A stretch of 64,000 nt of DNA, taken from contig NZ_JAFQ01000004.1 in assembly GCF_000526215.1 (NCBI RefSeq), forward strand, positions 3,348,001 to 3,412,000, written 5' to 3'. Below the pieces are notes generated by a model. It saw nothing but the letters and a program-made list of their open reading frames with translations, was not told where the DNA came from and did not search any database. Source of the DNA: Nocardia sp. BMG51109 (GTDB lineage Bacteria; Actinomycetota; Actinomycetes; Mycobacteriales; Mycobacteriaceae). The position numbers and the translations under genes are program-made. Positions 2,120-6,398 of the stretch are shown piece by piece (the stretch's first letter is position 1; each line of letters begins with the position of its first letter).

Positions 2120-3280
2120 TCAGCGCTCGGACCGGGTCGCCCGCACCAGCTCCATGGTCTCGGTCAGCAGCTTGCCGACCGCCTCGATCTCGGTGAGGAA
2201 CCCGTCGTGCCCGTCGCGCGAGTGCACCACCTCGAGGCCCTTGCAGCCGGGTAGCAGATCGGCCAGCTCCTGCTGTGTGCGCAGCGGATACAGCCGGTCG
2301 GAGTCGACGCCGCCGACGATGCACGGCACCGCGGTGCCGGCCAGCGCGGCCTCGATCCCGCCCCGCCCGCGGCCCACGTCGTGCCGGCTCATCGCCTCGG
2401 TCAGCAGCACGTAGGTGGCCGCGTCGAAGCGCCGCGACAGCTTCGCCCCCTGGTACTCGAGATAGCTCTGCACCGCGTAGCGGCCGCCGTTGCGGGGATC
2501 CTCGTCGCCCTGTGGCTGATTCTCGAAGCGGTGGTCCAGCTCGAAGTCGGTGCGATAGGTCAGGTGCGCGATCCGGCGGGCGATCCCCAGCCCGGTGGTC
2601 GGCGCCCGGCCGGTGCCGTGATAGTTGCCGCCCTGCCAGTCCGGATCGGCCTTGATGGCCGCGACCTGCGTGGTCTGGGTGCCGATCTGATCGGCGGTGG
2701 CACGCGCGCCGACGGCCAGCACCAGCGCGGCCTCGACCCGCCGCGGGTGGCCGATCATCCATTCCAGGACCCGCATCCCGCCCATCGATCCGCCGACCAC
2801 GGCGGCCAGCCGGTCGATACCCAGCAGGTCGATCAGGTTCACCTCGGCGGTCACCTGATCGCGGATGGAGATACCGGGAAACCGTGCGCCCCAGGGCCTT
2901 CCGTCCGGCGCGGGAGATCCGGGCCCGGTACTGCCCTTGCAGCCGCCGAGCACGTTGGTGGAGATCACGCACCACTCGTCGGTGTCCAGCGGCGCGCCCG
3001 GCCCGACGATGCCGTCCCACCAGCCCGGCAGCTGGTGCGGTTCGGTGGGCGCGCCCACCACATGGGAATCGCCGGTCAGGGCGTGCTCGATGAATACGAC
3101 GTTGTCCCGCTCGGACGACAGTTCACCCCAGCGCTGCACGGCGAGCTTCACATCGGGGACCACCGCCCCGCTCTCCAGCCGCACATCCCCGATGGCAATG
3201 GTGCCGAGTGTGCCGTCCGGCGGCGGTAGCAGCGTGGCCGCGGCCGAACGGTCCGTCTCCGAGCCGATGCCCACGGTCAC
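2120..3280 (-). CDS. metX: homoserine O-acetyltransferase
   Basis: Alpha/beta-hydrolase-fold enzyme (about 386 residues) that acetylates L-homoserine with acetyl-CoA, the first committed step of methionine synthesis in actinobacteria. Diagnostic motifs are [37 protein letters not shown] and the nucleophile elbow [14 protein letters not shown] (Ser near 165). The rest of the triad is in [11 protein letters not shown] (Asp) and SRDGHDGFL (His). The length agrees with mycobacterial MetX. I chose the GTG at 3280 because its GTGA overlaps the TGA of the preceding 186-codon frame, implying translational coupling; GTG 3283 is an alternative. The operon lies behind the SAM-IV-type riboswitch and Cys leader at 3882-4044. 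The expected partner metY is absent from the intervening space. Confidence 0.92.
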
Positions 3281-3837: not shown

Positions 3838-3881
3838 GTACTACTCCAGGTGCGGTGTGCCGAGAGGCGGCGTGCGGCCCG

Positions 3882-3917
3882 TTATCGGGATTCGAATCTC
3901 GAAAGGCAACAACACAT
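3882..3917 (-). CDS. Polycysteine leader peptide (11 aa)
   Basis: Very short frame encoding MCCCLSRFESR and a TAA stop, with a near-perfect Shine-Dalgarno AGGAGGT (3924-3930) seven bases before the ATG. Three consecutive Cys codons (TGT TGT TGC) directly after the start are the signature of cysteine-sensing leader peptides, where ribosome stalling at Cys codons changes downstream mRNA folding. It lies between the SAM-IV-type riboswitch and the 186-codon frame leading to metX. A segment just downstream (3859-3866, CTCTCGGC on the minus strand) can pair with the 3' arm of the riboswitch-terminal hairpin, offering a switchable structure. The coding assignment rests on the SD and Cys run; the regulatory role is inference. 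Confidence 0.7.
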   Translation of the reverse strand: MCCCLSRFESR

Positions 3918-3939
3918 GTCGGTGACCTCCTGATAGTCG

Positions 3940-4044
3940 CGCTTGCTCTCGGCTTTCGAGAGCCTGGTCATCACCCGGAGCACCCCACCGCAACTGGAGG
4001 GTTGCCGGCCAGCGAGCCGGGGCTTGGCGCTGGCACTCATGACC
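3940..4044 (-). promoter_or_regulatory. SAM-IV-type S-adenosylmethionine riboswitch
   Basis: Read on the minus strand, the segment begins GGTCATGAGTGCCAGCG and closes with GGTGATGACC, so the outer P1 stem pairs GGTCAT (4039-4044) with ATGACC (3966-3971). Inside are the SAM-clan core features: CAAGCCCCGGCT, GCTGGCCGGCAACCCTCC and GCGGTGGGGTGC. A 7-bp hairpin, GCTCTCG/CGAGAGC with an AAAGC loop (3945-3963), follows directly, as expected for SAM-IV, the actinobacterial form. A possible -10 box (TACCAT, 4052-4057) sits just upstream. SAM-IV elements control methionine genes, in keeping with metX downstream. SAM-I is the main alternative class. Confidence 0.85.
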
Positions 4045-4096
4045 TGACTGGATGGTAGCGGATCGCCGGCGCGGGAAGCGAGACGAGGTCGGGGAG

Positions 4097-4771
4097 CTAA
4101 CCCCCGGCCTCACTCGCCCGGGCCACCGGGACCGCGCAGCGGCCGACGAACTCGTCGTAGGCGCCCCGGACGGCCCGGATGGTCGCCTCCGCCGACTCGG
4201 CCGGCGCGCACTCCGGAAGCTGGGCATCGCATTCCATCCCGGTGCGCAGGATCGCGTTCCAGGTCGCGGCGATGAGTCGCACGGTGAGCGAGTCGGGCTC
4301 GGCGCCGACTCGTTCGGCAAGGGCCGAGTGGATTTCGACGATCTTGCTGTCGGTGAACTCCATGCTGCGCGCGCGCACCGTCGGGCTGGATCGCGTGATC
4401 CGCTGCATGTGCTGGAACCACTCGAAGGGCAGCGGCCCGCCGCCCTCGATGCTCTCGGTGGTGACCGCCAGGTAGGTGTCGAAGAGGGCCTGCAACTCGT
4501 TGCCGGTGATCGGCTGTTCGCGCAGGTGGGCGGCGATGATCCGGCCCCACTCCTCGATCGGGGCGAGGACGATGTCCTCCTTCAGTTCGAAGTACCGGCT
4601 CACCGTCCGCGGCGATACGTCGGCCGCCTCCGCGATCTGCTCGACCGTGGTCGCCTCGAAGCCGTTCTCGTCGCACAACCGCAGCGCCACCTCGATGATG
4701 CGGCGCCGGGTCTGCTGCTTCTTGCGTTCGCGCAGGCCGGGCTGGTCTGGACGCGGCGGTGAGTCGAGCAT
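4097..4771 (-). CDS. TetR family regulator of the adjacent DHA2 pump
   Basis: A 224-residue one-component repressor. The N-terminal DNA-binding domain (about 13-62) reads GLRERKKQQTRRRI, then TTVEQIAEAADVSPRTVSRYF, the helix-turn-helix. The ligand-binding half (65-224) is variable and carries a single Cys pair region near the C-terminus. The GLRERKK start motif marks the TetR subfamily that usually sits beside drug-efflux pumps. It is divergent from the DHA2 transporter with 136 bases between starts, where TGAC/GTCA half-sites lie. It probably represses both itself and the pump; the ligand is unknown. Confidence 0.9.
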   Translation of the reverse strand: MLDSPPRPDQPGLRERKKQQTRRRIIEVALRLCDENGFEATTVEQIAEAADVSPRTVSRYFELKEDIVLAPIEEWGRIIAAHLREQPITGNELQALFDTYLAVTTESIEGGGPLPFEWFQHMQRITRSSPTVRARSMEFTDSKIVEIHSALAERVGAEPDSLTVRLIAATWNAILRTGMECDAQLPECAPAESAEATIRAVRGAYDEFVGRCAVPVARASEAGG

Positions 4772-4801: not shown

Positions 4802-4872
4802 GTGACGAGTACCGCCAAATGTCATAGTCGGACACTTTTCTCTTGACGCCAATTGTCAGACGGTGCCACTAT
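4802..4872 (+). promoter_or_regulatory. Promoter and putative TetR operators of the pump gene
   Basis: TTGACG (4843-4848) and CACTAT (4867-4872) form a -35/-10 pair with an 18-base spacer. Within and just upstream, two related segments, CGCCAAATGTCA (4812-4823) and CGCCAATTGTCA (4848-4859), each sit downstream of a TGACG. The second forms TGAC-GCCAAT-TGTCA across the promoter. The placement over the -35 and spacer fits repression by the divergent TetR protein. It also shows that the GTG at 4863 cannot be the gene start, as it lies in the -10 region. No binding data are available. Confidence 0.5.
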
Positions 4873-4907
4873 GGCTGCACATTCCTTCCGATGCAGGAGT
4901 CCCCCTC

Positions 4908-6398
4908 ATGACCGAAACCGGGACACTCGTTTCTCCCGATACCTCCGCCGGGCCGAAGAGTTCGGCGCGCTGGTGGGCGCTGGGCGTGATCGCCCTGGCC
5001 CAGCTCATGGTGGTGCTGGACGCCACCATCGTCACGATCTCGCTGCCGTTCGCCCAGCAGGACCTGGGCATCAGCGACGGCGACAAACAGTGGGTGCTCA
5101 CCGCCTACACGCTCATCTTCGGCGGCCTGCTGCTGCTCGGCGGCCGCCTCGCCGACTATCTGGGCCGCCGCCGGATCTTCCTGATCGGCCTCGTCGGCTT
5201 CGCCGGGGCCTCCGCGCTGGCCGGGCTGGCGCAGAATGCCGCGCAACTGTTCGCCGGGCGCGCACTGCAGGGCGCCTTCGCCGCGCTGCTGGCCCCGGCG
5301 GCCCTGTCGCTGGTGTCGGTGACGTTCACCGAACCGCGCGAAAGGGCAAGGGCCTTCGGCGTTTTCGCAGCCGTGTCCGGAGGCGGCGCGGCCATCGGCC
5401 TGATCGCCGGCGGGGCGCTCACCGAATACGCCGACTGGCGCTGGTGCCTGCTGGTCAACACGCCCGTCGCGCTGCTGGCGCTGGTCGGCGCCTTCTTCTT
5501 CGTGATCAAGGACGTCCCCGCGCCGCGGACCGGCGGTTACGACGTGGCGGGCGCGGTGACCGTCACGCTCGGCCTGATCGCGGTGGTGTACGGATTCAGC
5601 CGGGCCGCCGAGGACGGCTGGCTGGCCTCGTCCACGCTCGCGCTGCTGATCGCGGGTGTGGCGCTGCTGATCGCCTTCGTCGGCATCGAGCGGCGTACGT
5701 CGAACCCGCTACTGCCGCTGCATATTCCGGGTGAGCTCAATCGCGGCGGCTCGTTCCTGGTGGCGCTGCTGGTGCCGATCGCGATGTTCGCGATGTTCAT
5801 CAACCTCAGCTACTACCTGCAGATCACCCTCGGATACAGCCCGCTGAAGGCCGGCGTGGCATTCCTGGCCTTCCCGATCGGGATCGTGATCTCGGCGGGT
5901 GTGGCCGGTTCGCTGCTGCCGAGGATCGGGCCGCGGCCGCTGATGATCGGCGGCGGAGTGCTGGGCATCGCCGGCCTGGTGTACCTGGCGCAGTTGAGCT
6001 TCGGCGACAGCTTCGCCACCACCGTGCTGCCCGCGACGGCATTGATCGCGCTGGGTATGGGTGCGCTGTTCGTCTCCATGCAGACCACGGCGCTGCATCA
6101 GGTCGATGCCGAGGATTCCGGCGTGGCCAGCGCACTGCTCAACGCGGCCCAGCAGGTCGGCGGCGCCATCGGCACGGCCCTGCTGACCACCATCTCGGTC
6201 CAGGTGGCCCAGCGCTATGCGGAGAACAACCCGGCCGTCGACAACCTCGCGGCCCGGGCGGCGATCCACAGCTACGACATCGCCTTCTACATCGGCGCCG
6301 GGTTCTTCCTGGCCGCGATCGTCATCGTCGTGCTGATGATCCGGGACAAGCCGGAAAACCTGCTGGAGGGGTCGGAGCATACGGCGGCCGGTGTCTGA
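4908..6398 (+). CDS. DHA2 family MFS drug transporter
   Basis: Proton-driven efflux pump of 496 residues with about 14 predicted membrane helices. The sequence shows the DHA2 (EmrB/QacA) signatures: motif D1-like LDATIVTISLPFAQQDLG in helix 1, motif A GGRLADYLGRRRIF between helices 2 and 3, motif C-type GGGAAIGLIAGGALTEY in helix 5, and WRWCLLVNTPVALLAL after it. I start at the ATG at 4908 rather than an upstream in-frame GTG, because the latter lies in the promoter. Substrates are not predictable. It is divergent from a TetR gene, the standard arrangement for an inducible pump, and is followed by a strong terminator. Confidence 0.9.
   Translation: MTETGTLVSPDTSAGPKSSARWWALGVIALAQLMVVLDATIVTISLPFAQQDLGISDGDKQWVLTAYTLIFGGLLLLGGRLADYLGRRRIFLIGLVGFAGASALAGLAQNAAQLFAGRALQGAFAALLAPAALSLVSVTFTEPRERARAFGVFAAVSGGGAAIGLIAGGALTEYADWRWCLLVNTPVALLALVGAFFFVIKDVPAPRTGGYDVAGAVTVTLGLIAVVYGFSRAAEDGWLASSTLALLIAGVALLIAFVGIERRTSNPLLPLHIPGELNRGGSFLVALLVPIAMFAMFINLSYYLQITLGYSPLKAGVAFLAFPIGIVISAGVAGSLLPRIGPRPLMIGGGVLGIAGLVYLAQLSFGDSFATTVLPATALIALGMGALFVSMQTTALHQVDAEDSGVASALLNAAQQVGGAIGTALLTTISVQVAQRYAENNPAVDNLAARAAIHSYDIAFYIGAGFFLAAIVIVVLMIRDKPENLLEGSEHTAAGV

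Follow-up and report, generated by a model that had tools for sequence, protein, structure and literature searches.

The stretch of DNA analysed here (the window, 64,000 nt of Nocardia sp. BMG51109) harbours on its reverse strand a SAM-IV riboswitch aptamer, a short upstream open reading frame (uORF) that opens with cysteine codons, a putative relic of metY and the gene metX, in this 5' to 3' order (Table 1). The Rfam covariance search returned SAM-IV as the sole gathering-level match of the window (cut-off 38, E 9.7e-19). The aptamer is full length (model positions 1-116 of 116) and stands 5' of methionine/sulfur genes, in agreement with a preliminary description of this DNA, which had placed a SAM-IV-type aptamer ahead of metX. 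The 3' tail of the aptamer, CAAGCGCG, is presumably the pseudoknot partner of the P3 loop; 15 nt separate its first base from the GGAG of the uORF Shine-Dalgarno (SD) sequence. The same description had pointed to an 11-codon frame with an ideal SD and Cys at codons 2-4, and the letters bear this out: the uORF reads ATG TGT TGT TGC CTT TCG AGA TTC GAA TCC CGA TAA and is intact, with SD, ATG, three Cys codons and stop all present. It is SD-led and lies directly 3' of the aptamer, that is, its start is not leaderless. The pattern GGAG-N4-11-ATGTGYTGYTGY has three occurrences in the whole 8.79-Mb genome, the other two being TGCTGCTGC.

Table 1. Features of the SAM-IV/uORF leader and of the frames behind it (window coordinates)
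Feature	Position	Strand	Basis
SAM-IV riboswitch aptamer	3934..4044	-	RF00634, 107.1 bits
Aptamer 3' tail CAAGCGCG	3938..3945	-	sequence
uORF Shine-Dalgarno AGGAGG	3926..3931	-	sequence; 2 bases past aptamer
Cys leader uORF MCCCLSRFESR + stop, 11 codons	3882..3917	-	sequence, conservation
GGAG, SD of putative metY relic ORF	3844..3847	-	sequence
Putative metY relic ORF, 186 codons	3277..3837	-	local alignment with metY ends
GTGA, relic stop codon over metX start	3277..3280	-	sequence
metX, homoserine O-acetyltransferase	2120..3280	-	NF047917.1 MetX_acetyl_MTB, 602.7 bits, cut-off 475

The preliminary description regarded this leader as that of metX; the next frame after the uORF, however, is the 186-codon ORF that overlaps the metX start. 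This ORF has no Pfam or NCBIfam family match. It resembles the N-terminus (MSDST..DPAN) and the C-terminal region (VATIDDVR..AGLATAA) of metY, the middle being lost. Its local alignment with the C-terminal part of metY scored 74, the highest of 500 shuffles reaching 58, and that with the N-terminal part scored 45, a value without a shuffle control. At the sequence level the ORF thus appears to be a metY relic. An orthologous metY is absent from the genome, where the best match (49% identity) lies in another place. What follows the leader in the window today is this relic, whose frame stays open up to the start of metX and overlaps it in GTGA. The uORF stop does not overlap a gene start in the manner of ppe2; the overlap found in the window is that of relic and metX. 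The metX of the window starts with GTG and matches Nocardia loci best, with 86% identity to N. wallacei (L097).

Two further SAM-IV elements are present in the same genome (C4:1729896-1730009, L001, and C4:2702145-2702264, L003), and in neither does an SD-led frame with Cys as its second codon lie within 100 nt of the tail. Downstream of the second comes an ORF judged rhodanese-like by eye, and ∼550 nt beyond it lies a gene 38-40% identical to metY. On the other side of the aptamer of the window, a same-strand gene for a TetR-family regulator (4097-4771) ends 52 nt away (4045-4096) and is divergent from an MFS transporter gene (4863-6398, forward strand), which scored 227.2 bits with the EmrB subfamily model, just below the cut-off of 230.2. 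No sigma-70-like promoter was found between positions 3200 and 4300 of the window.

Among 148 Nocardia genomes, 147 have metX (G122 being without it). The 147 metX loci read (L114-L260) leave out that of G029, located 86 bases from a contig end. A SAM-IV profile built from 11 of 33 sequences (orientation filter) found the element upstream of metX in 144 of the 147 loci; it was not found in L198 and L205, which are cut by contig ends, or in L260, a second metX copy that has metY upstream. Loci were called 'metY-bearing' if tblastn gave a match longer than 150 residues within the stretch fetched; on this definition the 144 SAM-IV leaders divide into 68 metY-bearing and 76 metY-less ones. In 66 of the 68 metY-bearing leaders there is a short uORF behind GGAGG that has two or more early Cys codons (at least three Cys within the first eight codons in 61, two in 5), and GGAGG lies at most 16 nt before the uORF in all 66. 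The remaining two leaders (L239, L241) have no Cys uORF, and metY starts soon past the aptamer. The 66 uORFs are 5-20 codons long and encode 39 distinct peptides (for example MCCCRSPFAFR, MCCCPSIRPS, MCCCG and MCCCCCSSSR), with Cys at codon 2 in every one and at codon 3 in 65. A conserved short upstream ORF with consecutive Cys codons, the membership feature of polycysteine attenuator uORFs, is therefore present. The succession of aptamer and polycysteine frame suggested for the window is real and, at the level of the genus, belongs to metY-bearing leaders; the conserved partner gene of the SAM-IV/uORF leader is metY.

The metY protein of N. seriolae (L036), the one scored, reaches 828.7 bits (cut-off 703) with the model of bifunctional O-acetylhomoserine/O-acetylserine (OAH/OAS) sulfhydrylases. 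Since the metY of the relatives is, on this single protein, a predicted bifunctional enzyme, it may serve methionine and cysteine synthesis both; the window has the relic only.

In metY-less leaders the uORF is less regular: 19 of the 76 have at least three Cys, 23 have two, 14 have fewer and 20 are without a short uORF, the two-Cys class including spurious or non-ATG frames (13 remain if ATG and proximity to the tail are demanded). Erosion is seen in many metY-less relatives, some of them close to the window. In N. wallacei (L097/L119), which lost metY, SAM-IV is kept and the uORF is gone; N. mexicana (L083), likewise without metY, has MSCRCS at the uORF; and the close relative L116 reads MSCRCSLCGTR. 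The preliminary description had named loss of the CCC frame in close relatives with the riboswitch as evidence against its idea; such loss is seen in part, in metY-less L097 and L083, whereas metY-bearing leaders keep the uORF in 66 of 68 cases. The presence of metY changes four times or more on a metX tree covering 64 named loci, and uORFs with at least two Cys are found in 41 of 42 metY-bearing versus 6 of 22 metY-less loci. Association of metY with the uORF (at least three early Cys in 61/68 versus 19/76 leaders) was nevertheless set aside as not significant, because this tree offers only four independent pairs.

At the place of the lost metY, 64 of the 76 metY-less Nocardia leaders carry an ORF ending in NTGA over the open metX frame; in the other 12, six have no such ORF, four fail the frame test and two leave the fetched stretch. 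Over the 68 measured, these ORFs span 6-186 codons, the shortest being six-codon frames such as MSEWSR (loci L116-L259). The identity of the ORF as a metY stub was aligned for the window only; metY-like pieces are visible in many other metY-less loci (NIGDVRSLVI in L119 and L180). For comparison, metY itself overlaps metX in 34 of the 68 metY-bearing loci. In the metY-less loci the gene has apparently turned into a coupling ORF. Judging from these frames, a lost metY would be reduced to a stub that is translated and still delivers ribosomes to metX.

As far as the genome of the window is concerned, the uORF may persist merely by inertia, as a decaying leftover of a leader whose metY is gone. 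The lack of an orthologous metY, the lower share of Cys-rich uORFs in metY-less leaders, and the altered or lost uORFs of the close relatives L116 and L119 are what one would expect of such a leftover. The uORF of the window is, however, intact and the relic ORF is still open into the metX start, while the link between metY and uORF does not reach significance with four independent pairs; for this one genome, decay by inertia is regarded as rather unlikely.

The arrangement extends beyond Nocardia. A strict pattern (aptamer tail, GGAGG, ATG and three consecutive Cys codons) matched 46 of 401 genomes of the family, in 5 of 31 genera, one of the matches (L282) looking spurious; the reversed-pattern control gave 0. 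Conservation of the uORF is far above chance. Thirty other genera were sampled with one genome each; all 30 genomes have metY, with SAM-IV at most 900 nt upstream in 22 and no SAM-IV within that distance in 8. Sought without any Cys criterion, an SD-led short ORF is present in 15 of these 22 leaders; Cys occurs in all but one of the 15, and more than once in 11. Cys accounts for 29 of the 80 codons of the 15 ORFs, versus 1.7 expected from base composition. The Cys uORFs here have 5-6 codons (MCCCSR, MCCCRR, MCCGHR, MCSCHE, MCSDC, MRCRHC), and Cys occurs only once in three of them (MSRCR twice, MCRSPR). Cys uORFs are present in the named genera Antrihabitans, Prescottella, Aldersonia and Rhodococcus; in Williamsia (L093), SAM-IV and metY are there but no Cys uORF is. 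An SD-led Cys uORF following a SAM-IV aptamer is thus conserved across metY-bearing Nocardia leaders and also occurs in several other genera of the family. Since the uORF is absent from 7 of the 22 leaders of other genera, which have no SD-uORF ahead of metY, and from 2 of the 68 of Nocardia, it is presumably not needed for control by SAM. In the other two SAM-IV classes (32 loci; L001, L003-L033), no SD-led frame with Cys as its second codon was found.

In Rhodococcus, Prescottella and other genera (L075, L080-L090, L304-L320), unlike Nocardia, a hairpin of the GGGTCCG..CGGACCC type is seen by eye to separate the uORF SD from the tail of SAM-IV, hence the link between aptamer and uORF may differ there. 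In some leaders of other genera (L316, L317, L320, L323), 203-302 nt separate the Cys uORF stop from the aligned metY start, a much longer gap than the 22-53 nt of Nocardia.

Taken in order, a SAM-IV aptamer, a strong SD, a very short uORF opening with Cys codons and the start of metY (in the window, of its relic) suggest a two-input 5' leader of a metY-metX operon, in which SAM-IV gates a Cys-sensing uORF; on balance, this reading seems probable. The distance from CAAG to the first GGAG is 11-17 nt in 140 of the 144 Nocardia metX/metY leaders and 16-17 nt at eight class-B (rhodanese) SAM-IV loci. Because the spacing of the uORF SD is close to that of the class-B gene SD, the ribosome-binding site (RBS) of the uORF is likely the first target of the aptamer in Nocardia, and, sitting where class-B SAM-IV has the gene RBS, it would have its access for ribosomes changed by SAM binding. 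The speed of the ribosome over the Cys codons would then report charged Cys-tRNA, as proposed for mycobacterial Cys-rich uORFs. In the last and weakest step, the presence or place of a ribosome on the uORF might alter the expression of metY, either via the RNA before the metY SD or via Rho, and metX would follow metY by coupling where the frames overlap. According to the preferred logic, shortage of SAM and shortage of cysteine would each raise expression.

Structure analyses were carried out on 59 of the 66 metY-bearing uORF leaders, corresponding to 57 distinct sequences (seven were missed by the metY-start pattern), with neither ligand nor pseudoknots in the folding model. The modelled accessibility of the metY SD, averaged over the 57 leaders, was 0.23 with no ribosome, 0.29 with an initiating one, 0.27-0.28 with a Cys-stalled one and 0.27 with one at the stop; this near-constant average gives no clear sign of translational attenuation via sequestration of this SD. 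A minority of leaders (e.g. L203, L213, L217, L233) behaved attenuator-like in the model: a ribosome stalled at Cys leaves their metY SD partly open, whereas it is closed when the uORF carries no ribosome or one that has reached the stop. The best helix between uORF and spacer scored 16.3 on average, versus 13.5 for shuffled sequences, and differs between clades, being strong in one of them (GUUGUCGAA:UUCGGCGAC). For the Cys codons, the stop region of the uORF itself is as ready a partner (0.25 of pairing) as the spacer (0.31); in 20 leaders of one clade they also pair with the stop region. In the window, the RNA behind the aptamer is no more stably folded than shuffled sequences (z +1.16).

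Several candidate pairings were discarded. Segments 3859-3866 and 3945-3951 had been suggested as alternative partners through which ribosome position could reach the fold of the aptamer; they do pair in the window (GCCGAGAG:CTCTCGGC, 8 bp), but the pairing is not conserved, since 7 or 8 pairs form in 2 of the 7 close relatives printed (L115, L116) and only 3 of the 57 metY-bearing leaders reach shuffle p<0.05 (mean 12.7 versus 11.8 shuffled), and it was rejected as the switch. The resemblance of the uORF SD to the P1 5' strand (GGTCA) was noticed by eye, and GGTCA is not kept in most of the relatives printed. RNAalifold on the 57 leaders gave only a weak, G-U-rich helix in which the uORF start pairs with the tail of the aptamer (-4.5 kcal/mol; z -3.9 versus column shuffles, which do not keep relatedness); it was not relied on, and single clades gave other folds.

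Instead of access to the metY SD, the last step may concern Rho: a ribosome on the uORF would shield or expose a C-rich spacer, and cysteine together with SAM would set Rho-dependent termination before metY. From the uORF stop to the metY SD, the spacer contains C 643, T 413, G 321 and A 301 over the 57 leaders, counts with no control composition beside them. There are 0 terminator-like sites between 3200 and 4300 of the window, which thus lacks the U-run hairpin of a classical attenuator and any intrinsic terminator in that region, and Rho is suggested for mycobacterial Cys leaders in passages of PMC1262725. On the other hand, only 22-53 nt lie between the uORF stop and the metY start in the 57 distinct Nocardia leaders, which is short for a Rho site, and the Rho-dependent route is accordingly considered possible but doubtful.

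The sign of the response to SAM deserves separate consideration. In free folding the uORF SD is hidden in the aptamer, 0.56 of it being paired there. With the aptamer set aside, its mean unpaired fraction rises from 0.22 to 0.48, and it is freer by more than 0.1 in 35 of the 57 leaders and less free in 4. These values would agree with an opposite wiring, in which the SAM-bound aptamer frees the uORF SD, translation of the uORF represses metY and a Cys-starved stall relieves the repression, so that only plenty of both SAM and cysteine would turn the operon off. The same sign is proposed for mycobacterial Cys uORFs in the available part of PMC13091356, and suppression of metE by its uORF in M. 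tuberculosis, as given in the text seen of PMC11260477, points the same way. At the eight class-B loci, however, setting the aptamer aside likewise raises the unpaired fraction of the gene SD, from 0.21 to 0.60, so that SAM would there switch on a sulfur gene, and in the window itself the uORF SD pairs little with the aptamer (0.06). Sequestration of the uORF SD in the apo state was therefore rejected as evidence, being identical in class B and hence uninformative. With both kinds of SD hidden alike in free folding, the sign of SAM gating is not fixed by these predictions; the opposite wiring is judged unlikely.

The choice of Cys codons bears on one more explanation. The TGT:TGC ratio is 190:8 in the 66 metY-bearing Nocardia uORFs, a count of related sequences, and 163:7 over the 57 distinct leaders, versus 117:267 in metX/metY coding sequence. 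This strong preference for TGT lowers the GC content near the start and would suit an AU-rich ATGTGTTGTTGT opening that merely keeps the RBS unstructured, with the Cys content incidental; yet other AU-rich codons would do, whereas Cys recurs in 14 of the 15 SD-uORFs of other genera and in frames as varied as MCSDC, MRCRHC and MSRCR, which makes such a start-site aid very improbable.

To return to the gated, Cys-sensing uORF, one mRNA for methionine-making genes may, judging from the sequences, sense two sulfur compounds. A broader proposition can be put forward tentatively, as plausible but open to greater doubt: a two-metabolite RNA logic gate, shared by several genera, in which a SAM aptamer would act on a Cys frame of 5-20 codons and thereby set a dual sulfhydrylase, the stub of the deleted gene being kept as a translated coupling ORF so that metX could inherit the gate. 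If confirmed, a single mRNA would weigh the end product methionine against cysteine, and the leader would provide a testable system for a riboswitch acting through translation of a five-codon frame, for which natural uORF-plus, uORF-minus and metY-relic variants exist.

Both riboswitches and amino-acid leader peptides are familiar devices, and the SAM-IV aptamer with a Cys uORF is a new combination of these two types. No report that places a cysteine uORF in series with a SAM riboswitch was found among the matches listed, in a literature of partial coverage; the papers co-mentioning the topics show no such pair in the text available (PMC3890552, PMC8079986, PMC13091356, PMC7790235, PMC2965389, PMC9971707, PMC2704369). 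In M. avium, SAM-IV is located upstream of an O-acetylhomoserine sulfhydrylase gene, according to the part of PMC3774663 seen. Like SAM-IV elements in general (RF00634), the one described here is a full-length aptamer 5' of methionine genes; unlike them, it is separated from the gene by a Cys uORF.

Polycysteine leaderless short ORFs of mycobacteria (M. smegmatis) were reportedly described by Canestrari et al. in 2020. Cys-rich uORFs act as cysteine sensors in M. smegmatis according to the accessible text of PMC9031893 and PMC13091356, and the excerpts of PMC9094748 and PMC13236596 likewise treat mycobacterial Cys-rich short ORFs as cysteine sensors. As far as these partial sources go, the mycobacterial ORFs share with the uORF of Nocardia the run of consecutive Cys codons ahead of sulfur genes, whereas the latter has an SD in front and follows a riboswitch aptamer. 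For Actinobacteria, Seliverstov et al. (2005) described leader peptides with Cys codons ahead of cys operons and of cbs (PMC1262725). In the sections consulted, these leaders resemble the present ones in their runs of Cys codons and in having no conserved terminator hairpins, and differ in that the runs lie near the stop codon; ahead of methionine operons, the same sections report no RNA structures that are conserved.

The closest parallel in architecture is the interplay of a B12 riboswitch and a uORF at metE and ppe2 of M. tuberculosis (PMC11260477). There, too, a riboswitch and a translated uORF stand together and translation of the uORF changes downstream expression, in the portion of that paper available; those uORFs are not amino-acid sensors, the word 'cysteine' not occurring in the text, and the ppe2 uORF overlaps the start of its gene by 4 nt, whereas the gap here is 22-53 nt. 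In the enterobacterial mgtA/mgtL leader, likewise, translation of a short leader ORF sets expression, in that case answering to an ion and involving Rho; as presented in the part of PMC11282234 seen, that system relies on Mg2+ and an acidic/Pro motif, in contrast to SAM and Cys in the leader described here, and belongs to another phylum.
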